A stretch of 56,499 bases of DNA, taken from NCBI GenBank assembly GCA_017612555.1, contig JAGAFR010000008.1, positions 1 to 56,499 on the forward strand. Direction: 5' to 3'. The DNA comes from Lachnospiraceae bacterium (lineage in GTDB: Bacteria; Bacillota; Clostridia; Lachnospirales; Lachnospiraceae). The notes beneath the pieces were generated by a model. That model made no database searches, was not told the DNA's origin, and saw only the letters and a list, made by a program, of their open reading frames with translations. Positions 6,419 to 48,839 of the stretch are shown here, in pieces. The translations under genes and the position numbers were made by a program. Numbering within the stretch: the first letter of the stretch is position 1; the number at the start of each line of letters is the position of its first letter.

Positions 6419-6452
6419 ACCTATTGACACAGTAGGTAAATAGGGATATAAT
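6419..6452 (+). promoter_or_regulatory. Promoter of the sulfur island with operator-like dyad
   Basis: TTGACA (6424-6429) and TATAAT (6447-6452) are both consensus with 17-base spacing. A dyad ACCTA (6419-6423) / TAGGT (6433-6437) wraps the -35 box. Almost the same arrangement is seen before nifS at 47187-47220, including the AATAGG bases in the spacer. A shared repressor of the Rrf2 (IscR/CymR) type is a reasonable guess, but the regulator is not in the window. Confidence 0.75.
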
Positions 6453-6478: not shown

Positions 6479-7726
6479 ATGGTAGACAAAATGCTGTTTA
6501 ATACGAAACTGCTTCACGGAAAAAGTACACAGGGCTTTGTATCAGGCCAGACACTCCCACCGATCTCTCAGGTCAGTGCATTCAGATATGAGAGTATGGA
6601 GGAGCTTGAAAAAGTCTTTGACCATAAAAAGATGGGGTTTGCATACACAAGAATAGGCAATCCCACGCTTGCCGCATTTGAACAGCGGATCAGCGAACTT
6701 GAGGGCGGAGCCGGTGCGGTAAGCTGCAGCAGCGGTATGTCAGCCATCTCTTCAGCGATACTCGCCATATGTGAAAGCGGTGATGAGATCATAGCCGGAA
6801 GCGGCCTGTACGGTGGGACGATCGGTCTCCTGCATGATCTTGAAAAATTCGGGATCCATACAGTTTACGCGGAAGAGCTTAACGGTGATGCTGTAAGGCG
6901 TCTGGTCAATGAAAAAACACGGCTTGTATTTGCCGAACTGATATCAAATCCTTCACTTAAAGTCGTTCCCGTTACGGAAGTAGCGCAGGCTGCGCATGAA
7001 GCCGGTATTCCGCTGTTTGTTGATTCAACTACCGCGACACCCTTCATAGCACGCCCCCTTACTCTCGGGGCAGATGCAGTTATACATTCGACGTCCAAGT
7101 ATCTGAACGGCGGCGGTAACTCCATAGGCGGGATCATCGTTGACGGGGGAAAGTTCAAATGGGATGTTTCAAAGCATACAGCTCTTGCTGAATTTGCGAA
7201 ATACGGTCCCATGGCATTCTCGGTAAGACTTCGTACGGATATATGGGAAAACCTGGGCGGCTGTATGGCCCCGGCTAATGCCTTCCTCAGTTACATAGGG
7301 ACGGATACGCTGGGACTTCGAATGGAAAGGATATGTGAAAATGCCGATAAACTCGCGCATGCGCTTGATAAGCTTTCGGGAATAGAAGTTAATTACCTGA
7401 CGCTGCCGCAACATGCATACCATGAATATGTTGACAGCCAGCTTGGAGGATACGGCGGAGGAATCTTAAGCTTCAGAGTGGGATCGAAGGAACGTGCATT
7501 TTCGGTTATAAATTCGCTTAAATATGCATACATAGCAAGCAACATAGGAGATATCAGGACACTGGTGATCCATCCGGCATCAACACTGTATGTTCAGGCA
7601 AGCCGTGAGGAAACCGAAGCTGCAGGTGTATATGATGACACAGTAAGAGTCAGTGTCGGAATAGAGGACGCGGATGACCTGATAGATGATTTTACACAGG
7701 CTATAGAACGATTGGAGAATATATGA
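6479..7726 (+). CDS. metY: Cys/Met-metabolism PLP enzyme, O-acetylhomoserine/O-acetylserine sulfhydrylase-like
   Basis: A 415-residue member of the Cys/Met gamma-family. FNTKLLHGKSTQGFVSGQT, YTRIGNPT, the AGSGLYGGT loop and the STSKYLNG motif with PLP-binding Lys207 are clear. Family members add sulfide or a thiocarboxylate to O-acetylhomoserine or O-acetylserine. A MetY of this sort is paired with ThiS-like carrier, E1 and JAMM peptidase in the Wolinella homocysteine pathway, and the same partners follow here. The serine acetyltransferase at the island's end suggests O-acetylserine could be the acceptor instead. The start has no clear ribosome site; an in-frame ATG at 6491 is an alternative. 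The leader is only about 20 bases. Confidence 0.85.
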   Translation: MVDKMLFNTKLLHGKSTQGFVSGQTLPPISQVSAFRYESMEELEKVFDHKKMGFAYTRIGNPTLAAFEQRISELEGGAGAVSCSSGMSAISSAILAICESGDEIIAGSGLYGGTIGLLHDLEKFGIHTVYAEELNGDAVRRLVNEKTRLVFAELISNPSLKVVPVTEVAQAAHEAGIPLFVDSTTATPFIARPLTLGADAVIHSTSKYLNGGGNSIGGIIVDGGKFKWDVSKHTALAEFAKYGPMAFSVRLRTDIWENLGGCMAPANAFLSYIGTDTLGLRMERICENADKLAHALDKLSGIEVNYLTLPQHAYHEYVDSQLGGYGGGILSFRVGSKERAFSVINSLKYAYIASNIGDIRTLVIHPASTLYVQASREETEAAGVYDDTVRVSVGIEDADDLIDDFTQAIERLENI

Positions 7727-8097
7727 AATATACAATAACGCCTCCGGCTCTTGACAGGATGAAATCGCATCTGACGGGGACTTATCCCAACGAAGGATGC
7801 GGACTTCTGGCAGGAACCGCCAAAGGCTCGATCGAAGAAGTGTTTTACACAGATAACGTAACAGATGTCGAAAAGGCATCAAAGCATTATGAAATAGATC
7901 CCCTTACTCTTTATGATCTTGAGAAGAGAGCGGAAGAAAAAGGCTACAGGATCCTCGGTTTTTACCATTCGCATCCCGACTGTCCCGCAAATATGTCATC
8001 AGAAGACAGCGAGCATATGATACCCCGCATGCTGTATGTGATAGCATCAGTCGAAAGAGGCAGGTGCGGTGAGATAAGAGGATATGTAAAGGATTGA
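7723..8097 (+). CDS. JAMM/MPN+ metalloprotease, sulfur-carrier processing type (first copy)
   Basis: A 124-residue JAMM domain (Mov34/MPN/PAD-1). The zinc site is complete: Glu24 in NEGCGL, His82-x-His84-Pro, then Ser92-x-x-Asp95. Relatives such as Mec and HcyD cut after the Gly-Gly of ThiS-like carriers, either to trim a C-terminal residue or to free an amino acid made on the carrier. It overlaps metY by four bases (ATGA) and precedes the ThiS-ThiF-rhodanese fusion by 7 bases. The internal Gly-Gly of that fusion is a possible substrate (inference). Confidence 0.9.
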   Translation: MKYTITPPALDRMKSHLTGTYPNEGCGLLAGTAKGSIEEVFYTDNVTDVEKASKHYEIDPLTLYDLEKRAEEKGYRILGFYHSHPDCPANMSSEDSEHMIPRMLYVIASVERGRCGEIRGYVKD

Positions 8098-8104
8098 TGA
8101 GACA

Positions 8105-9562
8105 ATGAGAGTATTAATATCGGCAACGCTTCGGAATTACTTTGATAAAAATCATGTGATAGAAGTATCGGAAGATAATATAAGGTCTATTCTGAAGTTT
8201 CTTACGGATGAGTATCCCGAGTCCAAGCGGATACTGTTCGATGACAACGGGAATATAAGGAGTTTCATACGTTTGTATGTCGGAGAAAAAGATCATACTG
8301 ACCCGGGAATGTGGTACAAGCAGCTTTCCGAAAATGATGAACTTATCATTCTGCCTGCCATTGCGGGAGGCGCCCCGAATGATTCGATCATCAGCGATGC
8401 AAGGATGAAAGCTCAGTCGCTTGACGATAATGATATCAAACGGTTTGAAAAGCATCTTCTCCTGAAGGAGATAAGTGTCAAGGGGCAGAAGAGGATCAAG
8501 GCGGCAAGGGTGGTCGTCTGCGGAGCGGGGGCGCTCGGCTCGCCTGTGATACAGTACCTTGCGGCAGCGGGCGTCGGAACGATCAAGGTTGTTGACGATA
8601 ATGATGTTGCGCTTGCGGATGTTTCCTGCCAGGTGCTCCACAACAGCCGGGATGTCAACAGACCGAAGGTCGCATCCGCAAAGGACAAAGTCAGAAATAT
8701 CAATAAGAACATAGAATTCGAGGCAGAGAATGTAAAGCTGGACGCAGAGAATATAGAGGATATCTTCGACGGATATGATCTTGTAGTAGACTGTACGGAC
8801 AATTACAAATCAAGATATCTGATCAACGATGCGTGCGCACTTCTTGATATACCTCTGGTATTTGCTTCCGTATATCAATATGAAGGCAGAGTGGGCATAT
8901 TCAACCATAACGGAGGACCGTGTCTGCGATGTCTGTATCCCGAACCTCCGGAGCCGGGTCTTGTACCGACATGTGCGGAGGGAGGGACGATCAGCCCGCT
9001 CGCCGGAATCGTCGGGAGCATCCAGGCGAATGAAGCGTTAAAGCTTATCATAGGTATCGGAGATCATCTTGACGGAAAGCTTCTTACGATCGACAGCCTG
9101 TATCTGCATTCGAGGATATTGACCGTAAATAAAAACAGTAAATGCCCGCTCTGCGGTATTTCCAAGACTATTCATTCGGTCGAGGATTATGATTACGATG
9201 AGCTTTGCGGACTGAGGCACGGAGATGAAGAGATCCCTGTTGAAGGTCTTACCCCCGATGAGCTTGCACGGAGGATAGATAACAATGATCCGATGACCCT
9301 CATAGATGTCAGGGAACCTCATGAACGTGCGATAATGCGATTCCCGAATGCGATCGTGATACCGATAGGACAGCTTGCAAGAAGGATGAAAGAACTGGAT
9401 CCCGAGGTTGATACGATATTCATCTGTAAGTCGGGAAAGCGAAGTATCCTTGCGATCAATACGCTTCGCGAAGCGGGATACGAAGGAAAAATGTACAACC
9501 TTAAAGGCGGCATAGATGCGATGAAGGATATCATATTCTCGCATGAAGGAGCTTGGTTATAG
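8105..9562 (+). CDS. ThiS/MoaD - ThiF/MoeB - rhodanese fusion protein
   Basis: A 485-residue three-domain protein. Residues 1-89 are a ubiquitin-like MoaD/ThiS domain ending in AIAGG (Gly88-Gly89), followed directly by Ala-Pro rather than a terminus. Residues about 110-345 are an E1-like domain with the GAGALGSP nucleotide loop, CLRC (273-276) and CPLC (347-350) zinc pairs and Cys290 in PTCAEGG. Residues about 380-485 are a rhodanese with catalytic Cys441 in CKSGKRS. Two arginines needed for adenylation in MoeB are altered: the YSRH arginine is Lys116 and the NLQRQ arginine is Cys175 (DVSCQ). The second E1 of the island keeps both. The fusion could carry persulfide sulfur to carriers; true adenylation is doubtful. 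Confidence 0.9.
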   Translation: MRVLISATLRNYFDKNHVIEVSEDNIRSILKFLTDEYPESKRILFDDNGNIRSFIRLYVGEKDHTDPGMWYKQLSENDELIILPAIAGGAPNDSIISDARMKAQSLDDNDIKRFEKHLLLKEISVKGQKRIKAARVVVCGAGALGSPVIQYLAAAGVGTIKVVDDNDVALADVSCQVLHNSRDVNRPKVASAKDKVRNINKNIEFEAENVKLDAENIEDIFDGYDLVVDCTDNYKSRYLINDACALLDIPLVFASVYQYEGRVGIFNHNGGPCLRCLYPEPPEPGLVPTCAEGGTISPLAGIVGSIQANEALKLIIGIGDHLDGKLLTIDSLYLHSRILTVNKNSKCPLCGISKTIHSVEDYDYDELCGLRHGDEEIPVEGLTPDELARRIDNNDPMTLIDVREPHERAIMRFPNAIVIPIGQLARRMKELDPEVDTIFICKSGKRSILAINTLREAGYEGKMYNLKGGIDAMKDIIFSHEGAWL

Positions 9563-9564
9563 GA

Positions 9565-9614
9565 TGTCACGACGAATGTCGTGACAGGCGGAGCGCCGTC
9601 TGAGCGGGGACGGC
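9565..9614 (+). repeat. TGTCACGA palindrome plus second hairpin before the encapsulin gene
   Basis: A perfect 9-bp stem TGTCACGAC / GTCGTGACA with loop GAAT (9565-9586) is followed by a second stem GCCGTC / GACGGC (9595-9614). The first palindrome shares its TGTCACGA...TCGTGACA core with the two arms that flank rnpB. The spacing of two hairpins around a GGAGCGC stretch also recalls the dispersed two-hairpin element found at 51561. No T-run follows, so it is not a simple terminator. Confidence 0.6.
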
Positions 9615-9687
9615 CAACTTTAATATTTGATGTTTTATTAAAATGAACATAAGTAATGCCAGTCATACACAAAAGGAGGAGACAAAC

Positions 9688-10647
9688 ATGGCAAAAGAAA
9701 CCGAAAACAAGAGCGTTGGTATCAATGCGCTCGGAGCAAAAGCGGCTTACAATCTTGCGAATATCACCAAGACCAAGCCACAGTACGGAGCACTGACACC
9801 CAAATGGCTCACGAAATTTCTTGAATTCAAGGGACTCGAGACGGGTATCTACAGGGTCAACAAGGTTGTTGAAGGAGAAACACCCCTTGATGTGCTTTGC
9901 AGCCAGACCAAGAAGTCTGACATCATCCCCCAGGGATTTATCCAGTATGAGACCGAGCCACGTGAATACGTGCTCAATTCGATCTCAACGATCATTAACG
10001 TTAACACGGCAGTGGAAGATGTTTACAGTGTTCCTTACGATCAGGTTCAGGAACAGCTCGGGCTTGCGATCGAGTCACTGCGTGAGCGTCAGGAAAGTCA
10101 GCTGATCAATAATGATGATTACGGCCTTCTTAAGAACGTTGCAGATTCACAGAGGATCCAGACAAGAAACGGTGCACCTACACCGGATGATCTTGACGAA
10201 CTGATCTCCAAGGTATGGAAGGAGCCTTCATTCTTCCTTGCTCATCCGAGAGCTATCGCTGCATTCGAGAGAGAGTGCACGAAGAGAGGCGTTCCGCCTG
10301 TAGTTGTTAACATTGCAGGAGGCAATTTCCTTACATGGAGGGGAATCCCTGTTGTTCCTACAGATAAGCTTCTTGTTGACGGACTTAAGAATCCCAAGTC
10401 CGAAAGCGGAAAGACAAACATCCTTCTTATCCGTACCGGAGAAGCCAAGAGAGGCGTTATAGGTCTGTTCCAGGCAGGACTTAAGAATGAGCATTCAAGA
10501 GGTCTGTCCGTACGTTTCAGAGGGATCGACGATAAAGGTGTTGCATCCTATCTTCTGTCTTTATACTGCTCTGCAGCAATACTTGCCGATGACGCAATAG
10601 CTGTGCTTGAAGATGTAGAAGTAGGTGAATATTATGACTACGATTGA
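9688..10647 (+). CDS. Family 2A encapsulin nanocompartment shell protein
   Basis: A 319-residue HK97-fold shell protein of the SrpI-like Family 2A group. Recognisable runs include LANITKTKPQYGALTP, ETGIYRVNKVV, YETEPREYVL, GAPTPDDLDELISKVWKEP, FFLAHPRAIAAFERECT, RGVPPVVV, WRGIPVVPTDKL and a C-terminal ASYLLSLYCSAAILADDAI. These match the cyanobacterial SrpI shell closely from memory. Such shells self-assemble and enclose a cysteine desulfurase, which is the next gene and overlaps by 14 bases. The ATG at 9688 follows AGGAGG at ideal distance; an upstream ATG at 9643 lacks a site. A phage major-capsid reading is rejected because no other phage genes are present. Confidence 0.95.
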   Translation: MAKETENKSVGINALGAKAAYNLANITKTKPQYGALTPKWLTKFLEFKGLETGIYRVNKVVEGETPLDVLCSQTKKSDIIPQGFIQYETEPREYVLNSISTIINVNTAVEDVYSVPYDQVQEQLGLAIESLRERQESQLINNDDYGLLKNVADSQRIQTRNGAPTPDDLDELISKVWKEPSFFLAHPRAIAAFERECTKRGVPPVVVNIAGGNFLTWRGIPVVPTDKLLVDGLKNPKSESGKTNILLIRTGEAKRGVIGLFQAGLKNEHSRGLSVRFRGIDDKGVASYLLSLYCSAAILADDAIAVLEDVEVGEYYDYD

Positions 10648-12352
10648 AAACCTTGCCGGTGTTCCGAGTGCGGGAGAATTGAGCATACTTGCCAATGAGC
10701 TGTTTCCCGATCTGACGGAGGGTGTGTACGGTGTTCCCGAGACAGACATCCCGGTCGCATCTGTCCCTGAGGCTGATGTATCGCAGGGCATAACCTATGT
10801 GGCTACAGAGGAAGCAGTACCTGGAGTTAATGTCAATGAGACGGTACCTTCTTCGGAAGAATTCGACTGGGAGCATCCGTTCGCATACGGCGGCGGGGAT
10901 CCTTATTTCCGGTCAGTTGAAGAGGCAAGTGCACCCGAGGCAGAGTTCCTTCCGGGTGTTGCGGATATGCCTGCAGTAACGTCGGACAGCAGTACGAGTT
11001 ACGCACCTGCTGTAATGTCTCAGACACAGGCGAAGGAGCATGACCGTAAGATCGATGCACCGACTTCGCTTGGAGGCGACAGTGTTAAAACGTCAAAGAG
11101 CGAAGGCGAAAGATCAACTTCGCGAAATGATTCCATAAGGATCGGAAGCAAAACGCTGGCACAGATTAGGGATGATTTTCCGATACTAAAGGAACAGATA
11201 AACGGACATCCCCTTGTATGGCTTGACAACGGCGCAACAACACAGCGTCCTCAGGCTGTCATCGACAGACTGAAATATTATTACGAACATGAGAATTCAA
11301 ATGTTCACCGAGGTGCTCATACACTTGCTGCAAGATCGACTGACGCATATGAAGATGCAAGGGACACGGTAAGGGATTTCATAGGTGCACCTTCATCCGA
11401 TGAGATCGTGTTCGTTCGCGGAACAACGGAGGGAATAAACCTTGTCGCAAATGCGTATGTAAAACCGCTCCTTGAGCCGGGCGACGAGATAATCGTATCG
11501 ATACTCGAACATCATGCCAACATAGTTCCCTGGCAGCTTGTTGCACAGGCAACGGGTGCGGTTATCAAAGTCATTCCGTGCGATGAGACCGGACAGCTGA
11601 TACTTCACGAATATGAAAAACTGTTCACTCCGAAGACCAAATTCGTATCCGTTACACATGTATCAAATGTGCTCGGTACGGTAACACCTATCGAAGAGAT
11701 AATCGCCATCGCTCACAGACATGGCGTACGTATCCTTGTTGACGGTGCTCAGTCCGTTGCACATATACCGGTTAATGTATCGGCTCTTGATGTTGACTTT
11801 TTCGTTTTCTCCGGTCACAAGATCTTCGCGCCGACAGGCATCGGAGCTGTTTACGGCAAGAAGGAACTGCTTGAGGCGGCGCAGCCGTATCACGGTGGCG
11901 GAAACATGATAGCCGATGTGACTTTTGAAAGAACGATCTATAACCCCGCTCCAAACAAATTTGAAGCGGGAACAGGAAGCATAGCGGATGCGGTGGGACT
12001 CGGCGAAGCACTCAAATATCTGTCTTCAATAGGCATGCCGTGCGTTTATCGTTGGGAGCATGAACTTCTTCAGTATGCGATGAAGGAAATGAGTACCGTT
12101 AAGGGACTCCACTTTATCGGAACGGCTCTTAACAAAGCCTCGGCTCTTGCGTTCACGCTTGACGGGTATTCGGATGAAGAGGTCGGAAAGAGACTTGATG
12201 CATACGGAATAGCGGTAAGAACAGGACATCACTGTGCGCAGCCGGTTTTGAGACGGTTCGGATATGAGAGCTCGGTAAGACCTACGCTGGCTCTTTACAA
12301 TTCACCGGACGATATTGATGCGCTTGTAAAAGTATTAAAGACATTTGCGTAA
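10634..12352 (+). CDS. Encapsulin cargo cysteine desulfurase with disordered N-terminal loading region
   Basis: A 572-residue protein. Residues about 1-170 are low-complexity, rich in Pro, Ala, Val, Glu and Ser, with LSILANELFP near the N-terminus; such extensions target the enzyme into Family 2A encapsulins. From about residue 175 it is a group II (SufS-like) cysteine desulfurase: DNGATTQRP, NVHRGAHTLA, EHHANIVPW, VDGAQS, PLP lysine Lys396 in FSGHKIFAPTG, and the catalytic Cys534 in RTGHHCAQP. It takes sulfur from cysteine to give alanine and an enzyme persulfide. I chose ATG 10634 (AGGTG 6-7 bases upstream) over an in-frame GTG at 10625. It overlaps the shell gene, supporting co-expression. 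Confidence 0.95.
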   Translation: MTTIENLAGVPSAGELSILANELFPDLTEGVYGVPETDIPVASVPEADVSQGITYVATEEAVPGVNVNETVPSSEEFDWEHPFAYGGGDPYFRSVEEASAPEAEFLPGVADMPAVTSDSSTSYAPAVMSQTQAKEHDRKIDAPTSLGGDSVKTSKSEGERSTSRNDSIRIGSKTLAQIRDDFPILKEQINGHPLVWLDNGATTQRPQAVIDRLKYYYEHENSNVHRGAHTLAARSTDAYEDARDTVRDFIGAPSSDEIVFVRGTTEGINLVANAYVKPLLEPGDEIIVSILEHHANIVPWQLVAQATGAVIKVIPCDETGQLILHEYEKLFTPKTKFVSVTHVSNVLGTVTPIEEIIAIAHRHGVRILVDGAQSVAHIPVNVSALDVDFFVFSGHKIFAPTGIGAVYGKKELLEAAQPYHGGGNMIADVTFERTIYNPAPNKFEAGTGSIADAVGLGEALKYLSSIGMPCVYRWEHELLQYAMKEMSTVKGLHFIGTALNKASALAFTLDGYSDEEVGKRLDAYGIAVRTGHHCAQPVLRRFGYESSVRPTLALYNSPDDIDALVKVLKTFA

Positions 12353-12378
12353 CACCGGAAGTAAGAAAGGATAAAAAA

Positions 12379-12585
12379 ATGAAGATCACGGTTTCGGGAG
12401 AGAAAAAGGAAGTTGCTGACGGCATTACCGTTTCAGCCCTTATTGAACAGGAACAGGTGGAAACACCGCAATATGTGACGGTATCCGTAAACGAAGAATT
12501 CATCGATAAAGATGATTTTGACAGTCACGTTCTTAAAGATGGTGATGAAGTTGAGTTCCTGTATTTCATGGGAGGAGGAAGATAA
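12379..12585 (+). CDS. ThiS/MoaD-like sulfur carrier protein ending GGGR
   Basis: A 68-residue ubiquitin-fold carrier (ITVSGEKKEV, TVSALIEQ, DGDEVEFLYFM). It ends Gly65-Gly66-Gly67-Arg68, so the Gly-Gly end used for adenylation and thiocarboxylation is masked by one arginine. Carriers of this kind (HcyS-type) need a JAMM peptidase to remove the last residue, and two are encoded nearby. The stop overlaps the ATG of the next E1 gene by one base, which fits a carrier-E1 pair. Confidence 0.9.
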   Translation: MKITVSGEKKEVADGITVSALIEQEQVETPQYVTVSVNEEFIDKDDFDSHVLKDGDEVEFLYFMGGGR

Positions 12586-13391
12586 TGGCTTTTACCAATG
12601 AACAGCTCGAGCGCTACAGCCGGCATATCATTCTGAAAGAAGTAGGAGTCAAAGGTCAGAAAAAGCTTCTTAACGCGAAAGTTCTCATAATCGGAGCCGG
12701 AGGACTCGGCGCTCCGGCAGCTTTGTATCTTGCGGCTGCCGGTGTCGGGACTATCGGAATAGTCGATGCGGATGTAGTCGACCTGTCTAATCTTCAACGT
12801 CAGGTCATACATACAACGAACGACATCGGAAAGAAAAAAGTTGAATCCGCAGCTGAAACGATGCGGGCGATCAATCCGGATGTAACGGTCAACACATATT
12901 ATGAATTTGTGTCAAGCGCAAACATCATGGATCTGATCAAAGACTATGATTTTATTCTTGACGGAACAGATAATTTCCCGGCAAAATTCCTTATCAACGA
13001 TGCATGCGTTATGGCAAAAAAACCGCTTTCGCATGCAGGTATCATAAGGTTTAAGGGACAGCTTACCACGATCGTTCCCGGAGAGGGACCGTGCTACAGG
13101 TGTATCTTTAAGGATCCACCGCCGAAGGATGCCGTTCCGACTTGTAAACAGGCCGGTGTCATAGGCGCGATGGGCGGTATCATCGGATCGCTCCAGGCTA
13201 TGGAAGCCATCAAGTATATTACAGGTGTCGGAGATCTTCTTGTCGGTTATCTGCTCACATATGATGCGATCAAGATGGAGTTTCACAAGATCAAACTCCC
13301 GCCGCGGGGCAGGGGATGTGCGGTGTGCTCGGATACACCGACTATCACGGAACTGATAGATTACGAACAGAAGGCTTGTGATATGCATTAA
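12585..13391 (+). CDS. ThiF/MoeB/HesA-family E1-like adenylyltransferase
   Basis: A 268-residue canonical E1-like enzyme that would adenylate the C-terminal glycine of the carrier encoded just upstream and allow its sulfuration. Residues visible: Arg13 in YSRH, the GAGGLGAP loop (37-44), Arg72 in NLQRQ, LDGTDN around 126-130, zinc pairs CYRC (170-173) and CAVC (245-248), and Cys187 in PTCKQAG. Length is normal for ThiF/MoeB. Unlike the fusion E1 at 8105-9562 it keeps both catalytic arginines, so it is the likely active activating enzyme. AGGAGG upstream. Confidence 0.92.
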   Translation: MAFTNEQLERYSRHIILKEVGVKGQKKLLNAKVLIIGAGGLGAPAALYLAAAGVGTIGIVDADVVDLSNLQRQVIHTTNDIGKKKVESAAETMRAINPDVTVNTYYEFVSSANIMDLIKDYDFILDGTDNFPAKFLINDACVMAKKPLSHAGIIRFKGQLTTIVPGEGPCYRCIFKDPPPKDAVPTCKQAGVIGAMGGIIGSLQAMEAIKYITGVGDLLVGYLLTYDAIKMEFHKIKLPPRGRGCAVCSDTPTITELIDYEQKACDMH

Positions 13392-13513
13392 GGAGGGACC
13401 CACGAAGTGGGAGGATTCCTTATTGCACCGTGAGGCCCCATCCTGTATCCCGTACGAAGTGCGGGATGCCACCCCGGCGAGGGGCGAAGTCGGATTCAAA
13501 TGGCCGAACGTCC
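13389..13513 (+). repeat. Two-hairpin dispersed element, copy A
   Basis: This begins at the stop codon of the E1 gene. Hairpin 1 has an outer stem TAAGGA / TCCTTA, a purine-rich internal loop (GGGA / AGGA) and an inner stem CCCAC / GTGGG. CACCGTGAGGCC follows, then hairpin 2 (ATCCCG / CGGGAT) and a tail ATGGCCGAACGTCC. The same order occurs at 23594-23681, 28133-28200 and, inverted, at 51561-51646. It fills the gap before the second JAMM gene. Confidence 0.75.
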
Positions 13514-13526
13514 TTGGAGATATGAA

Positions 13527-13955
13527 ATGAAGATAACGATTTCCAAAGATGATTTTGACAGAATATATGAGCATGCCCTTTCGGTCCGCCCTGAGGAAGC
13601 ATGCGGTCTGATAGCCGGGCAGGACAGGGATTCGGGGTTCCGTGTTATAGAAAAGGTGTATATCCTTACGAATACGGACCATACGAATGAACATTTTACG
13701 ATCGATCCCAAGGAGCAGCTCGCGGCTATCAAAGATATGCGAGCAAACGGGCTGAAACCCCTCGGTAACTGGCATTCCCACCCGGAATCCCCGTCACGGC
13801 CGTCTGAGGAAGACAAGAGGCTTGCAAACGACAGCAAGGCAAGTTATCTCATCTTATCATTGATGGAAGAAGGAAAGCCTGTGCTGAACGCGTTTCACAT
13901 AGAATCTAAAGATGGCGAAAAAACTGTAAGAAAAGAAGAACTGTTGATAATTTAA
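13527..13955 (+). CDS. JAMM/MPN+ metalloprotease, sulfur-carrier processing type (second copy)
   Basis: A 142-residue JAMM peptidase. Glu24 in EEACGL, His83-x-His85-Pro, Ser93-x-x-Asp96 reproduce the zinc site with the same numbering as the first copy. I chose the ATG at 13527, which has GGAG 7 bases upstream and leaves the repeat element outside the gene; an in-frame ATG at 13500 would read through the repeat. It probably acts on the carrier encoded upstream (removing Arg68, or releasing an amino acid), while the first copy may serve the fusion protein. That division is inference. Confidence 0.9.
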   Translation: MKITISKDDFDRIYEHALSVRPEEACGLIAGQDRDSGFRVIEKVYILTNTDHTNEHFTIDPKEQLAAIKDMRANGLKPLGNWHSHPESPSRPSEEDKRLANDSKASYLILSLMEEGKPVLNAFHIESKDGEKTVRKEELLII

Positions 13956-13982
13956 GACACTGAAGAAACGGGAGGATGACAA

Positions 13983-14234
13983 ATGGCGGATATTGATTTT
14001 AACGTTGATGATACTGTAGATATAACCGATGTTAACTGCCCGGTGACGTTTGTTAAGACAAAGGTTGCGCTTGAGGAACTTGACGAGGGGCAGATACTCC
14101 GGGTTCACCTTAACGACGGAGAGCCGGTACAAAATGTTCCGAGAAGCGTTAAGGAAGAAGGACATGAGGTTCTGCGCCTTGATGATAACGGCGACGGAAC
14201 ATTTGAACTGTACATTAAAAAGGTTGGAGATTAA
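13983..14234 (+). CDS. TusA/SirA-like sulfur relay protein
   Basis: An 83-residue TusA-fold protein. The active Cys19 lies in NCPVTFVKTK, where the usual C-P-x-P is C-P-V-T. The rest (VALEELDEGQILRVHL, DGEPVQNVPRSVKEEGHEV) is typical of TusA relatives encoded beside JAMM and ThiF genes. TusA proteins accept persulfide sulfur from cysteine desulfurases or rhodaneses and hand it on. GGAGG upstream; 14 bases separate its stop from the acetyltransferase start, so the two are surely co-transcribed. Confidence 0.88.
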   Translation: MADIDFNVDDTVDITDVNCPVTFVKTKVALEELDEGQILRVHLNDGEPVQNVPRSVKEEGHEVLRLDDNGDGTFELYIKKVGD

Positions 14235-14248
14235 CGGAGAAACACTTG

Positions 14249-15208
14249 ATGCCCCAGGATATGGAAAAAAAGATAGATAACCTTATAAACCTGTATATTG
14301 ATGATTATCAGGGGAAGAAGGTCATCGATAAGATCAAGATTTTTGAACATCCCGATCGAGCAAAAGTAATTGATATACTGGAAAAACTGCAGAAGATCAT
14401 TTATCCGGGATATCACAGGAACAATGCGTTCAAGACATATACCATCAGAAACAGTATATCTGTCCTTCTTGAAGATGTGATATACAATCTTAAGGCTCAG
14501 CTCAGTATTGTTCTGAAATACTCACCTCAGTACGAGCATGCCGGTCCCGAAGCAATTACACTTGCTGCGGACAGTATCACATTCAGTTTTCTGGAGAAGA
14601 TACCCAAGATCAGGGAGTATATCGAAACAGATGTACAGGCAGCTTTTGACGGAGATCCCGCAGCTTATAATACGGACGAGATCATATGTACCTATCCGGG
14701 ACTGTATGCAACAATGACGAATCGCATCGCGCATGAGCTGTATCTGCTTGATGTTCCGATGATCCCACGCATAATGACTGAACATGCCCATAGTATCACA
14801 GGGATAGATATCCACCCGGGAACAACTATCGGAAAGTATTTTTTTATCGATCACGGAACAGGAGTTGTCATTGGTGAAACTACGGTGATCGGAGATAATG
14901 TTAAGATCTATCAGGGTGTAACACTCGGTGCATTATCTACAAGAGGCGGACAGACACTGAAGAAGGTAAAACGTCATCCGACTATTTCGGATAATGTGAC
15001 CATATATTCCGGAGCTTCGATACTTGGTGGAGATACTGTGGTTGGAAAGGATGTAGTCGTAGGAGGTAATGCGTTCATAACCTCGTCAATACCTGAAGGT
15101 GCCCGCGTGAGTGTCAAAAGTCAGGAGCTTACGTTTAATTATGACTCCGGGCACCCTATCGAGAGAAAAGAAATTGAAATGGATGAGTCCTGGTTTTATA
15201 CCATCTGA
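14249..15208 (+). CDS. cysE: Serine O-acetyltransferase
   Basis: A 319-residue serine acetyltransferase of the long EpsC type. The helical N-terminal half carries the SAT N-terminal domain, and the C-terminal half (from IHPGTTIGKYFFIDHGTG) is a left-handed hexapeptide-repeat beta helix with the HGTGVVIGETTVIG active-site segment and the GALSTRGG loop. It makes O-acetylserine from serine and acetyl-CoA, the sulfur acceptor for cysteine synthesis. An ATG at 14249 with GGAG nine bases before it is preferred to an in-frame TTG at 14246. It closes the island; serine acetyltransferases are known neighbours of Family 2A encapsulins. Confidence 0.95.
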   Translation: MPQDMEKKIDNLINLYIDDYQGKKVIDKIKIFEHPDRAKVIDILEKLQKIIYPGYHRNNAFKTYTIRNSISVLLEDVIYNLKAQLSIVLKYSPQYEHAGPEAITLAADSITFSFLEKIPKIREYIETDVQAAFDGDPAAYNTDEIICTYPGLYATMTNRIAHELYLLDVPMIPRIMTEHAHSITGIDIHPGTTIGKYFFIDHGTGVVIGETTVIGDNVKIYQGVTLGALSTRGGQTLKKVKRHPTISDNVTIYSGASILGGDTVVGKDVVVGGNAFITSSIPEGARVSVKSQELTFNYDSGHPIERKEIEMDESWFYTI

Positions 15209-23445: not shown

Positions 23446-23481
23446 TGTCACGATCGCTTCGCGATCGTGACATAGAATACC
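23446..23481 (+). repeat. Left arm of the inverted repeat bracketing rnpB
   Basis: Bases 23446-23472 form a 12-bp palindrome TGTCACGATCGC / GCGATCGTGACA with loop TTC. Together with the next nine bases they are the inverse of 23897-23932. The two arms differ at two positions (TCGC versus TTGC), which keep each arm's own hairpin perfect but place one C-A mismatch and one G-U pair between the arms. Confidence 0.8.
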
Positions 23482-23907
23482 AGACAATCGCTTGAAATAC
23501 AGAGGAAAGTCCGGGCTTCGCAGGGCAGGATGCCGGATAACGTCCGGTGGAGGTGACTCTAAGGAAAGTGCAACAGAAAATATACCGCTCTATGAAGATA
23601 GGAGGGGCCCACTGTGTGGGAGGAACCTGTCTTCACCGCGAGACCCTATTCTGCGAAAGCAGAATTTGATTGTCGAGCGTCCTCGTAAAGAGGTATGAGT
23701 AAGGGTGAAATGGCAGTGTAAGAGACTACCGCCCGGGTGGTAACACGCGGGGCAGTGTAAACCCCATCCGAAGCAAGACCAAGAAGAAGCGATACGGTTG
23801 CCCGCCGTGCTTCGGGTAGGTCGCTTGAGGTCGTCGGTAACGGCGATCCTAGATAGATGATTGTCACGGGATTTTCCCGTACAGAACCCGGCTTATGGTA
23901 TTCTATG
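23471..23907 (+). ncRNA. rnpB: RNase P RNA, class A
   Basis: The catalytic RNA that matures tRNA 5' ends. The universal segments are visible: GAGGAAAGTCCGGGCT near 23502, GGATAACGTCCGG near 23536, GGAAAGTGCAACAGAAA near 23563, GTAAGGGTGAAA near 23699, AAACCCCATCCGAAGCAAG near 23759 and ACAGAACCCGGCTTA near 23881. P1 pairs CATAGAATACC (23471-23481) with GGTATTCTATG (23897-23907). At about 437 nt it is longer than usual because the P12 region holds a dispersed two-hairpin element (23594-23681). Exact ends are inferred from P1. Confidence 0.95.
23594..23681 (+). repeat. Two-hairpin dispersed element, copy B, inside RNase P RNA P12
   Basis: Hairpin 1 pairs GAAGATAGG with CCTGTCTTC, has a purine internal loop (AGGGG / AGGAA) and an inner stem CCCAC / GTGGG with loop TGT. 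CACCGCGAGACC follows, then hairpin 2 (ATTCTGC GAAA GCAGAAT) and the tail TTGTCGAGCGTCC. It sits between ATACCGC and GTAAGGGTGAAA of rnpB, where most class A RNAs have a short P12 stem. The match to copies A, C and D includes compensatory changes in the outer stem. Confidence 0.8.
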
Positions 23908-23932
23908 TCACGATTGCGAAGCAATCGTGACA
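23897..23932 (+). repeat. Right arm of the inverted repeat bracketing rnpB
   Basis: GGTATTCTATG, the 3' strand of P1, runs into a palindrome TGTCACGATTGC / GCAATCGTGACA with loop GAA (23906-23932). No T-run follows, so it is not an ordinary terminator; it could be a processing hairpin or allow an extended P1. Confidence 0.8.
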
Positions 23933-47186: not shown

Positions 47187-47220
47187 ACCTATTGACACGA
47201 TAGGTGAATAGGAATATAAT
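47187..47220 (+). promoter_or_regulatory. nifS promoter with operator-like dyad
   Basis: TTGACA (47192-47197) and TATAAT (47215-47220), both consensus, spacing 17. The dyad ACCTA (47187-47191) / TAGGT (47201-47205) and the following AATAGG match the metY promoter at 6419-6452. A common sulfur or Fe-S responsive repressor is inferred. Confidence 0.78.
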
Positions 47221-47252: not shown

Positions 47253-48437
47253 ATGATCTATGCAGATAATGCCGCCACGACCAAAATGAGTGATGCGGCG
47301 ATAAATACCATGACGAGCCTTATGAAAGAGACATGGGGAAATCCTTCGAGTCTCTATGAGTTCGGACAGAAGGCAAAGGAAGTGCTTGAAGAGGCCAGGA
47401 GAACCGTTGCCGATGCTATAGGCGCGGATCCGAAGGAGATAGTTTTCACATCGGGCGGAAGCGAATCCGATAACCAGGCGATCATCACTGCGGCAAATAT
47501 CGGGGCGGAAAAAGGAAAGAAGCATATAATTTCTTCCGCTTTTGAACATCACGCAGTGCTTCATACATTAAAAAAACTTGAAAAACAGGGCTATACAGTA
47601 ACGCTTCTTGATGTACATGAAGACGGGATCATAAGGCCGGAAGAGCTCGCAACTGCCATAACTGATGACACATGCCTTGTAACGATAATGTATGCGAACA
47701 ATGAGATCGGAACGATCCAGCCCATAAGAGAGATCGGGCAGATATGCAGGGATCGCGGGATCATCTTTCATACCGATGCGGTCCAGGCACTCGGGCATAT
47801 ACCGGTAAACGTTATAAGCGACAATGTCGATATGCTTTCCGGATCTGCGCATAAGTTCCACGGACCAAAGGGCGTCGGATTTTTATATGTCAAAAAAGGC
47901 ATAAAGATCAGCAGCCTTATAGAAGGCGGGGCTCAGGAAAAGGGCAGAAGAGCGGGTACGGAAAATGTCCCGGCGATAGCAGCCGCTGCAGCAGCACTTA
48001 AGGATACCGTCGCAGGTATTAAGGTAAACACCGCAGGCATCAAAGCTAAGCGCGACAGGCTCATGGAAGGCCTTCGTACCATACCGCACAGCGCTCTTAA
48101 CGGGGACGCAAAGAGACGCCTTCCGGGCAACGTCAATTTCTGCTTTGAAGGAATCGAAGGTGAATCGCTCCTGCTCCTTCTGGACGATAAGGGGATACAG
48201 GCATCATCGGGGTCGGCCTGCACTTCGGGCTCGCTCGATCCGAGCCACGTTCTTCTTGCGATAGGACGTGTGCATGATGTGGCCCACGGATCGCTGCGCC
48301 TTACCATAGGAGAGGATACGAGTGATGAAGACGTTGAGACGATCATCAGCTCGGTAAAAGAAGTAGTCGGATATCTCAGGAGTTTCTCGCCGATATGGAG
48401 AGATCTTGAGTCGGGTGTAAAGAAGCACATTCTCTGA
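47253..48437 (+). CDS. nifS: Cysteine desulfurase, NifS/IscS type
   Basis: A 394-residue group I cysteine desulfurase for Fe-S cluster assembly. YADNAATTKMSD at the N-terminus, TSGGSESDNQAI, the PLP lysine in GSAHKFHGPKGVG, and the catalytic Cys in SSGSACTSGSLDPSH on the flexible loop. It differs from the SufS-like encapsulated enzyme at 10634-12352 in both the loop and the missing N-terminal extension. AGAGGAG before ATG. The scaffold gene follows by 24 bases. Confidence 0.95.
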   Translation: MIYADNAATTKMSDAAINTMTSLMKETWGNPSSLYEFGQKAKEVLEEARRTVADAIGADPKEIVFTSGGSESDNQAIITAANIGAEKGKKHIISSAFEHHAVLHTLKKLEKQGYTVTLLDVHEDGIIRPEELATAITDDTCLVTIMYANNEIGTIQPIREIGQICRDRGIIFHTDAVQALGHIPVNVISDNVDMLSGSAHKFHGPKGVGFLYVKKGIKISSLIEGGAQEKGRRAGTENVPAIAAAAAALKDTVAGIKVNTAGIKAKRDRLMEGLRTIPHSALNGDAKRRLPGNVNFCFEGIEGESLLLLLDDKGIQASSGSACTSGSLDPSHVLLAIGRVHDVAHGSLRLTIGEDTSDEDVETIISSVKEVVGYLRSFSPIWRDLESGVKKHIL

Positions 48438-48461
48438 TAAAGAGTGAACGGGAGGAATAAA

Positions 48462-48839
48462 ATGGCTCTGTACAGTGAAAAAGTAATGGATCATTTTCGC
48501 AATCCGAGAAACGTCGGAGTGATCGAAGATGCGGACGGTGTCGGCGAAGTCGGAAACGCGAAGTGCGGGGACATCATGAAGATGTATCTGAAGATAGATA
48601 ATGACATAATAAGTGATGTCAAGTTCGAGACTTTCGGATGCGGCAGCGCGATCGCATCAAGCTCCATGGCGACGGAACTCATAAAAGGCAAACCCGTCAG
48701 CGAAGCGATGGAACTTACGAACAAGGCCGTTGCGGAGGCGCTTGACGGACTTCCGGATTACAAGATGCATTGTTCGGTCCTGGCTGAAGAGGCGATCCGG
48801 TCCGCGATCGATGATTATGAAAAAAAGAAAAAACAGTGA
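48462..48839 (+). CDS. nifU: NifU/IscU-like Fe-S cluster assembly scaffold
   Basis: A 125-residue scaffold protein with three conserved cysteines: NAKCGDIMKMYL, FGCGSAIASSSMATELIKG and MHCSVLAEEAI. The cluster is built on these using sulfur from the upstream desulfurase. The ATG at 48462 with GGGAGG is preferred to an in-frame GTG at 48444. Its stop is one base from the convergent hemolysin III gene stop. Confidence 0.95.
   Translation: MALYSEKVMDHFRNPRNVGVIEDADGVGEVGNAKCGDIMKMYLKIDNDIISDVKFETFGCGSAIASSSMATELIKGKPVSEAMELTNKAVAEALDGLPDYKMHCSVLAEEAIRSAIDDYEKKKKQ

Follow-up and report, generated by a model that had tools for sequence, protein, structure and literature searches.

In a 56,499-nucleotide contig of a Lachnospiraceae bacterium (GenBank assembly GCA_017612555.1, JAGAFR010000008.1; the whole stretch is termed the window), ten genes encoded on the forward strand between positions 6479 and 15208 combine a Family 2A encapsulin and a cysteine desulfurase with sulfur carrier proteins, their E1 enzymes and JAMM metallopeptidases. 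The evidence consists of the gene content, its conserved linkage among relatives, C-terminal tails on the carriers, intact active-site motifs and an operator-like site shared with other sulfur genes. It is consistent with a compartment-coupled protein-thiocarboxylate sulfur pathway, in which the encapsulated desulfurase would feed carrier thiocarboxylates for cysteine or homocysteine synthesis, a reading towards which we incline with modest confidence. The full-text literature searched contains no description of a union between encapsulin and thiocarboxylate carriers; supplements and subscription papers lay outside the search, and a prior mention is possible there.

Gene content of the operon

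Inspection of open reading frames and profile searches recovered all ten genes and matched each to a named family, which bears out the original observation of ten genes on one strand. The order is MetY-like enzyme, first JAMM peptidase (JAMM1), ThiS-ThiF-rhodanese fusion, Family 2A encapsulin, cysteine desulfurase, free ThiS, E1, second JAMM peptidase (JAMM2), TusA and serine acetyltransferase, with intergenic distances of −4, 7, 125, −23, 26, −1, 135, 27 and 11 nucleotides. Seven of the nine junctions thus measure at most 27 nucleotides, including three overlaps, while the two long gaps (9563–9687 and 13392–13526) fold into GC-rich hairpins (z = −3.2 and −2.3) that may tune the expression ratios of shell and JAMM2. 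The base composition of the operon resembles that of the remaining window, and a search for duplications within the operon gave no repeat families at the settings used. The gene set is not a product of chance because the same set recurs throughout the genus and far beyond.

The shell gene (9688–10647, + strand as all genes of the operon) most likely starts at 9688, after AAAGGAGG, rather than at 9643. Its product of 319 residues scores 489.7 bits with the Family 2A model NF041162 (cut-off 380) and matches PF19307 at 2.4e-95; the score with the Family 2B model, 378.7 bits, stays under the cut-off of 400, and a cyclic nucleotide (cNMP)-binding domain is absent. The solved relatives include 8t6r (4e-114) and SrpI (6x8m, 6e-109), the latter with 54% identity (165/304). 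Residues G194, P196, F262 and Y273 (SrpI numbering), named as pore and cargo-site residues of SrpI (PMC8049743), are conserved in the window shell. By sequence homology to the solved shells, the protein is a candidate for a 60-mer assembly which would enclose the cargo. As a candidate phage capsid the shell was rejected, the single PHROGs match being weak and unnamed (21.6 bits), and the JAMM proteins match the peptidase part of phage tail proteins at no more than 57 bits.

The coding start of the desulfurase (10625–12352) overlaps the shell gene by 23 nucleotides. The enzyme scores 783.6 bits with the Family 2A cargo model NF041166, 16 short of the cut-off of 800, and 539 bits with the SufS-type model TIGR01979 (cut-off 475). 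Its N-terminal extension of about 175 residues, ahead of residue 178, contains LSILANELF, which resembles LARLANEFFS (PMC8049743). The motif RxGHHCA is present in 116 of the 121 distinct desulfurases from the fetched loci. The SspA and DndA models match the enzyme at 182 and 176 bits, as they would match desulfurases generally; an anti-phage system was likewise dismissed, as the corresponding E1/JAB models match partially (up to 67 bits) and no further component of such systems is found among the ten genes.

The fusion protein (8105–9562) consists of carrier A (approximately residues 1–89, ending in AGG), a ThiF/MoeZ-like E1 (PF00899, 8.8e-72) and a C-terminal rhodanese (PF00581, 8.6e-15), whose active-site cysteine is conserved throughout the 94 relatives. 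The carrier domain matches a SAMP1/MoaD-type model at 1.2e-9, under that model's cut-off, and the fusion reaches 342 bits with the MoeZ model, under its cut-off of 647. The best solved match of carrier A is 3dwg_C (1.2e-4), deposited as cfp10A, which we take to be Mycobacterium tuberculosis CysO in complex with CysM. Gly89 aligns with the last residue of this chain, and in the fusion further residues follow. An AlphaFold2 model (mean predicted local distance difference test score, pLDDT, of 76; predicted template modelling score of 0.65; 26-row alignment) was used solely for its low confidence at residues 85–93 (pLDDT <50), which span the AGG junction. The free carrier B (12379–12585), ending in GGG-R, matches the ThiS model TIGR01683 at 1.8e-19, over its cut-off; its Gly67 aligns with the final residue of the solved ThiS chains 1f0z, 1tyg and 2cu3, with one extra residue beyond.

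Such extensions are the rule among the loci examined, carriers truncated by contig ends being excluded from the counts. All 48 distinct free B carriers have 1–14 residues past the glycines (R in 14, Q in 8, the rest varied), a tail is present in 30 of the 31 distinct split A-type carriers (the exception, L187, ends at the glycines), and in 68 fusions (60 distinct) the carrier glycines are internal. Because the carriers are fused or tailed past their terminal glycines, trimming by a JAMM peptidase is predicted; in sequence they look as carriers matured by a peptidase would be expected to look. For carrier A, JAMM1 is the proposed trimming or releasing peptidase. JAMM1 (7723–8097) matches PF14464 at 7.6e-17 with the metal-site motif HSHPx6SxxD intact and 2kcq and 2kks as nearest solved structures, and JAMM2 (13527–13955, with 13527 as the most likely start) matches at 2.5e-25 with 2kks as nearest (7e-39). 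HxHx7SxxD/E is kept in 76 of 76 distinct JAMM1 and 48 of 48 distinct JAMM2 proteins from the fetched loci. The second E1 (12585–13391; ThiF/MoeB-like, PF00899, 1.4e-87) has no rhodanese, and the TusA-type sulfur-transfer protein (13983–14234; PF01206, 4.5e-21) belongs to a set in which CPxTFV is found in 40 of 40 distinct relatives. A genome of the genus, G021, encodes two E1-rhodanese fusions (C175, L040, and C307, L106), 67% and 83% identical to that of the window, the second copy being on a short contig free of a shell gene.

The pyridoxal phosphate (PLP) enzyme at the head of the operon (6479–7726) belongs to the O-acetylhomoserine/O-acetylserine sulfhydrylase family (PF01053, 7e-104; solved relatives 8sf5, 7kb0 and 3ri6) and is a divergent member of it since it attains 393 bits with TIGR01326 at a cut-off of 495. 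It holds the place of a CysM-type cysteine synthase, which the window operon does not contain. Among 84 loci (some contigs fetched twice are included), the gene preceding JAMM1 is CysX in 32, MetY-like in 27, neither in 17 and off the contig in 8; L182 and L202, scored as neither, have an overlapping CysX. CysX is our label for the gene of the cysteine synthase family found before JAMM1 in Aliarcobacter and many others. One branch (SH-aLRT, the Shimodaira–Hasegawa-like approximate likelihood ratio test, 100) separates CysX (37 rows) from CysK-like sequences (19 rows), and among solved structures the Aliarcobacter protein is closest to cysteine synthase B (CysM) enzymes. The occurrence of CysX before JAMM in many loci defines the wider layout as CysX-JAMM-carrier-E1/rhodanese-shell-desulfurase. 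The last gene of the operon, a serine O-acetyltransferase of the CysE/EpsC type (ATG at 14249, end at 15208; frame open from TTG 14246), matches TIGR01172 at 1.4e-47, under its cut-off, and the EpsC model at 149 bits (cut-off 150); such a gene often accompanies the wider layout (43 of the 80 named loci, see below).

Linkage of shell and carrier genes among relatives

Shell and rhodanese-bearing E1 occur together. The shell is present in 23 of 37 genomes of the genus, and the E1-rhodanese (E <1e-100) in all 23 of these and in none of the other 14, where the best matches remain above 1e-15. Among the 23, JAMM1, fusion and shell form an uninterrupted series in 18, which continues with the desulfurase in 16; in G006 and G016, which belong to the 18, the contig stops at the shell. 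In three genomes the operon contains JAMM2 but not JAMM1 (L041, L046, L048), and two loci are cut by contig ends (L040, L050). Within the order sample, 20 of 392 genomes contain the shell (three of them under the curated cut-off), and the E1-rhodanese (E ≤1e-75) is found in 14 of these 20 and in 0 of the 372 others, the two counts coming from two draws which show the same genome handles. Fisher tests for genus and order give 1.6e-10 and 2e-21, values which are too small owing to kinship. At the phylum level the shell occurs in 7 of 398 genomes, including that of the window; one of the six others, G398 (L097), has JAMM2, TusA, MetY and the fusion alongside, and the other five have shell and desulfurase only, JAMM and carrier being absent at the locus. 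A second shell-desulfurase-ThiS-E1 copy with 86–92% DNA identity is found in the assembly of the window itself (G000:C47; L003, 1–3257); its shell is nearest to that of genome G001 in the tree, so that it perhaps represents contamination from a sister species.

Named relatives were collected by one scan of genome contigs with the shell alignment, from which the best 80 of at least 590 were picked by similarity to the window shell. Of the 56 loci whose sequence reaches 4 kb or more upstream of the shell, 38 have JAMM1, carrier and E1-rhodanese within 6 kb, and seven more have carrier and E1-rhodanese without JAMM1, five of which carry JAMM2. All three are present in 11 of the 24 loci with less than 4 kb upstream. 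When either JAMM within 7 kb is counted, 55 of the 80 loci have JAMM, carrier and E1-rhodanese by the shell. The original interpretation would have been refuted had carrier and JAMM genes adjoined encapsulins in this genome alone; genus, order and named relatives show the opposite, which supports it in part. By record title the 55 loci belong to nine phyla (Bacillota, Spirochaetota, Fibrobacterota, Planctomycetota, Pseudomonadota, Thermodesulfobacteriota, Synergistota, Myxococcota, titled Deltaproteobacteria, and Campylobacterota), with one unassigned. Single contigs may be misbinned because most records are metagenome-assembled genomes, many titled rumen or omasum; records with the set that are not labelled as such include Pseudobutyrivibrio xylanivorans MZ8 (L153) and Enterobacter sp. 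10-1 (L195). In Aliarcobacter cibarius the set resides on a plasmid with insertion sequences within. This CysX version (L224, 4001–14515) looks broken because transposase genes lie between JAMM and carrier and inside the E1-rhodanese gene. A record titled Succinivibrionaceae (L170, 6584–15335) contains the full MetY-type operon preceded by the same operator-like motif, by horizontal transfer or misbinning.

The second half of the operon, module B (ThiS-E1-JAMM2-TusA-MetY), is found beside sulfite reductase with the shell absent in L102, and in L104 its E1, JAMM and TusA genes adjoin sulfite reductase and CysN- and CysD-type genes apart from the shell of that genome. In the Pseudobutyrivibrio-like loci L127 (4763–12969) and L130 (2585–15164), from the same family, CysD- and CysN-type genes directly precede JAMM1, fusion, shell, desulfurase and serine acetyltransferase; in L130, MetY, sulfite reductase, TusA, ThiS, E1 and JAMM2 follow, which places both modules on one contig.

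A shell tree of 126 rows, in which the window shell was excluded and its near copies L003 and L037 were included, contains one clade of 105 rows (SH-aLRT 100). Carrier and E1 accompany the shell in 89 of these, and JAMM1 in 73 of the 89. The JAMM1-bearing L224 is placed just outside this clade, and the plasmid shells of Azospirillum, Methylosinus, Synechococcus and Variovorax branch farther out. The annotated stretches of these four plasmid operons (an incomplete gene table) list no JAMM, carrier or E1, and the models find no JAMM or carrier there, the E1-rhodanese-like labels being rhodaneses only. Pairwise distances over 71 loci correlate between shell and E1-rhodanese (r = 0.64) and between E1-rhodanese and JAMM1 (r = 0.67), with 0 of 2000 permutations as high in either case; an earlier untrimmed run on 73 loci gave 0.51 for the former pair. 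The median distances in the 71 loci (shell 0.22, E1-rhodanese 0.41, JAMM1 0.68) indicate that the shell is far more conserved than E1-rhodanese and JAMM1.

Promoter and operator-like site

Just before the first gene lies a sigma-70-like promoter (6424–6452) with 12 of 12 matches, the only site above 10 of 12; promoter-like sites amount to 18 in total versus 15.2 expected. It is overlapped by ACCTATTGACACAGTAGGTA, an operator-like inverted repeat (ACCTA...TAGGT) whose 20-bp motif is matched with one mismatch at 6419–6438, so that promoter and repeat together occupy 6419–6452 on the + strand. At a tolerance of up to three mismatches, the window contains a single occurrence of the motif and 100 shuffles contain none. 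In four genomes of the genus the core pattern has 10 zero-mismatch matches, all at sulfur-gene loci, where they precede metY- or Rrf2/cysK-type genes, desulfurase-IscU type pairs and the encapsulin operon. A second operator-like site in the window (47188–47205, +, two mismatches) stands before a desulfurase-type gene of the Aminotran_5 family (47253–48437) and an IscU/NifU-type gene (48444–48839), and we propose from the sequence that this pair would belong to the same regulon as the encapsulin operon. Rrf2 genes, assigned by Pfam, adjoin four operator-like sites (L231, L236, L239, L241). In Bacillus, the Rrf2 protein CymR acts together with CysK to repress cysteine metabolism, and CymR and IscR sites are alike in clostridia (PMC3828012); in analogy, an Rrf2 protein might bind the operator-like site.

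A riboswitch or T-box ahead of the operon was dismissed, as Rfam at E up to 0.5 yields only RNase P; the class A RNase P RNA gene at 23472–23910 is the sole Rfam match in the window. Outside the operon, several genes were at first named by eye, and the names bearing weight were confirmed by Pfam, the AprA/AprB-like names being by eye only.

Proposed sulfur route and competing explanations

We propose the following scenario. The SufS-type desulfurase would be loaded into the Family 2A shell by way of its N-terminal extension and would convert cysteine to sulfane sulfur, which the shell could hold. The rhodanese of the fusion would take up this sulfane sulfur, and TusA would do so for the second carrier. 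After adenylation of the terminal glycine of the carrier by E1, the sulfur would give the carrier thiocarboxylate, which the PLP enzyme (a dedicated cysteine synthase in many lineages, MetY-like here) would add to O-acetylserine, supplied by the acetyltransferase of the operon, or to O-acetylhomoserine. Finally, JAMM would free cysteine or homocysteine from the carrier adduct; before that, it would be needed for cutting the carrier off its tail or fusion partner. All sulfur-transfer steps are those we infer from the families present, and the storage role is adopted from the literature on Family 2A shells, in which sulfur storage inside the shell is asserted (PMC10960027, PMC12407261). In Synechococcus, encapsulation raises the activity of the Family 2A desulfurase, and sulfur starvation induces the shell (PMC8049743).

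Parts of this route are shared with established systems. The HcyS-HcyD-HcyF-MetY pathway of Wolinella is known biochemically, an extra C-terminal residue on the carrier being among its defining features. Like this pathway, the window operon contains a free carrier with such a residue (GGG-R), a JAMM, an E1 and MetY. The second half of the operon corresponds to this sulfate-assimilation type of carrier cluster (type 4e of Iyer et al. 2006, PMC1779556), sharing a free ThiS-like carrier, JAMM, an E1 without rhodanese, TusA/SirA and MetY; it differs by the attached encapsulin, the lack of sulfate-reduction genes in the operon and of a CysD match in the genome. The CysM-CysO-Mec-MoeZ pathway of M. 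tuberculosis (PMC3227635; types 4c/4d, PMC1779556) has the CysO-like carrier, E1-rhodanese and JAMM in common with the operon, and many relatives additionally share the adjacent cysteine synthase. In contrast to that pathway, the genes described here are joined to shell and desulfurase, the carrier is fused or tailed and the window has a MetY-like enzyme instead of cysteine synthase. The likeness to CysO/Mec/MoeZ which had been put forward is strengthened by 3dwg_C as the best solved match of carrier A and by the dedicated cysteine synthase before JAMM in many relatives. The SrpI/CyD system of Synechococcus (PMC8049743, PMC8346489) shares shell, SufS-type cargo with N-terminal extension, serine acetyltransferase and a rhodanese. 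Its operon contains CysK and a stand-alone rhodanese, whereas in the window the rhodanese is fused to E1 and carrier, and JAMMs, carriers and MetY-like enzyme are added. Serine acetyltransferase and rhodanese are described as the most enriched accessory genes of desulfurase operons (Andreas and Giessen 2021, PMC8346489), and the available part of Iyer et al. (PMC1779556) lists the carrier modules as operon types 4c–4e and does not mention an encapsulin alongside.

Several observations weigh against the compartment-coupled pathway. To convert cysteine into cysteine again gains nothing without a temporal separation of storage and withdrawal, and in Synechococcus, knocking out shell and desulfurase left growth unimpaired in both replete and sulfur-starved medium (PMC8049743). 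A loose cargo-extension pattern matches 78 of 121 distinct desulfurases and a stricter one 12 of 126. Ten of the 105 rows of the shell clade are nested in it without nearby carrier genes and six more are undecided; the tree requires nine changes of the carrier label, which implies that losses, gains or incomplete loci occur. Carrier genes are missing altogether in 9 of the 56 named loci with at least 4 kb upstream and partial in two, and since the four plain plasmid operons have none, carriers are not needed for the shell generally. Shell and JAMM1 distances are uncorrelated (r = 0.06, 258 of 2000 permutations as high, 71 loci; 0.05 in the untrimmed run). Alternative donors of sulfur exist, e.g. 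an IscS-type gene in the same window or environmental sulfide, and because all 37 genus genomes contain CysK the carrier route is not the only cysteine synthase route of the genome, an idea which was dropped on this result. The operator pattern is also imperfect: at up to two mismatches the four genomes give 18 matches versus 8 for the backward control, one zero-mismatch site (G029:C4) has no intact target next to it but a rhodanese/TusA-like gene and the remnant of a cysK, and the motif is absent before MetY in some loci of the genus. Finally, many genomes are metagenome-assembled and that of the window is 89.7% complete, so that single gene absences are weak and the genus pattern is stronger.

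An overlapping variant, which we regard as somewhat unlikely, is carrier-mediated transsulfuration, whereby in the lineage of the window homocysteine would be made from cysteine sulfur via MetY and O-acetylhomoserine and the shell would be a safe generator of persulfide instead of a store. The PLP enzyme of the window is indeed MetY-like and not a cysteine synthase, MetA is present in 34 of 37 genus genomes, and MetY with ThiS, E1 and JAMM resembles, as an operon type (PMC1779556), the HcyS system known biochemically from Wolinella. However, the serine acetyltransferase of the operon points to O-acetylserine, a cysteine synthase occupies the same place in many relatives, and the MetY substrate is predicted by family only. 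It is unlikely that the genes are merely clustered as a regulon, i.e. as co-expressed sulfur-response genes with carriers sulfurated from free sulfide or by general sulfurtransferases and the shell as an independent sink for excess cysteine or persulfide. Such a scenario would account for module B with its rhodanese-free E1 beside sulfite-reductase and sulfate genes away from the shell (L102, L104), for the operator-like site common to other sulfur genes and for plain Family 2A operons without carriers. It would not explain why the rhodanese-bearing module is tied to the shell, occurring in no shell-less genome of the genus and order samples and upstream of the shell in relatives from several phyla; moreover, CysD is not above the cut-off in 22 of the 23 shell-bearing genus genomes (it is so in 3 of 37, one of them, G002, with a shell).

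Ubiquitin-like conjugation, in which the carriers, like SAMPs, would be attached to the shell, the desulfurase or further proteins and taken off again by the JAMMs, appears very unlikely: the set of ubiquitin-like protein, E1 and JAMM is present and both JAMMs match the desampylase model, under its cut-off, but none of the ten genes is E2-like, rhodanese, TusA and PLP enzymes lie next to the set, and the matches to defence-type E1/JAB models are partial, as noted above. Most improbable of all, and set aside on the ThiG and MoaE results, is a service of the carriers to thiamine, molybdopterin or a thio-natural product with an accidental shell neighbour. The free carrier does exceed the ThiS cut-off; yet unlike thiamine ThiS it extends past GG, the solved chains 1f0z, 1tyg and 2cu3 having no such tails when aligned to their ends, and the linkage is too widespread. 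Profile searches of the window genome, with the completeness given above, match no ThiG, MoaE or CysD, so that the classic ThiS/MoaD uses and the CysD sulfate route appear to be absent. In the genus, ThiG is limited to weak partial matches in 13 of 37 genomes (up to 27.1 bits, six nominally above the Pfam cut-off), and MoaE occurs in 2 of 37, both without encapsulin.

The anaerobes bearing carrier-linked shells are, to judge from record titles, presumably mostly gut-derived. The layout common to several phyla suggests how sulfur held by a shell, according to the compartment-coupled pathway, could become amino acids again. With less confidence, it is possible that a large Family 2A clade, horizontally spread among anaerobes of many phyla, serves as rechargeable sulfur banks whose withdrawal currency is the protein thiocarboxylate, CysO-type carriers paying out cysteine or, in rumen Lachnospiraceae, homocysteine without cystathionine. 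Two questions meet here, the reuse of sulfur held by Family 2A shells and the sulfur supply of CysO-type carriers, for which MoeZR yields the CysO thiocarboxylate upon co-expression and the sulfur source is called unknown (PMC3227635). A conserved operon with both halves in several phyla makes both questions directly testable. If the proposal is true, the encapsulin would be more than a store, namely a point at which sulfur is metered into amino-acid synthesis.

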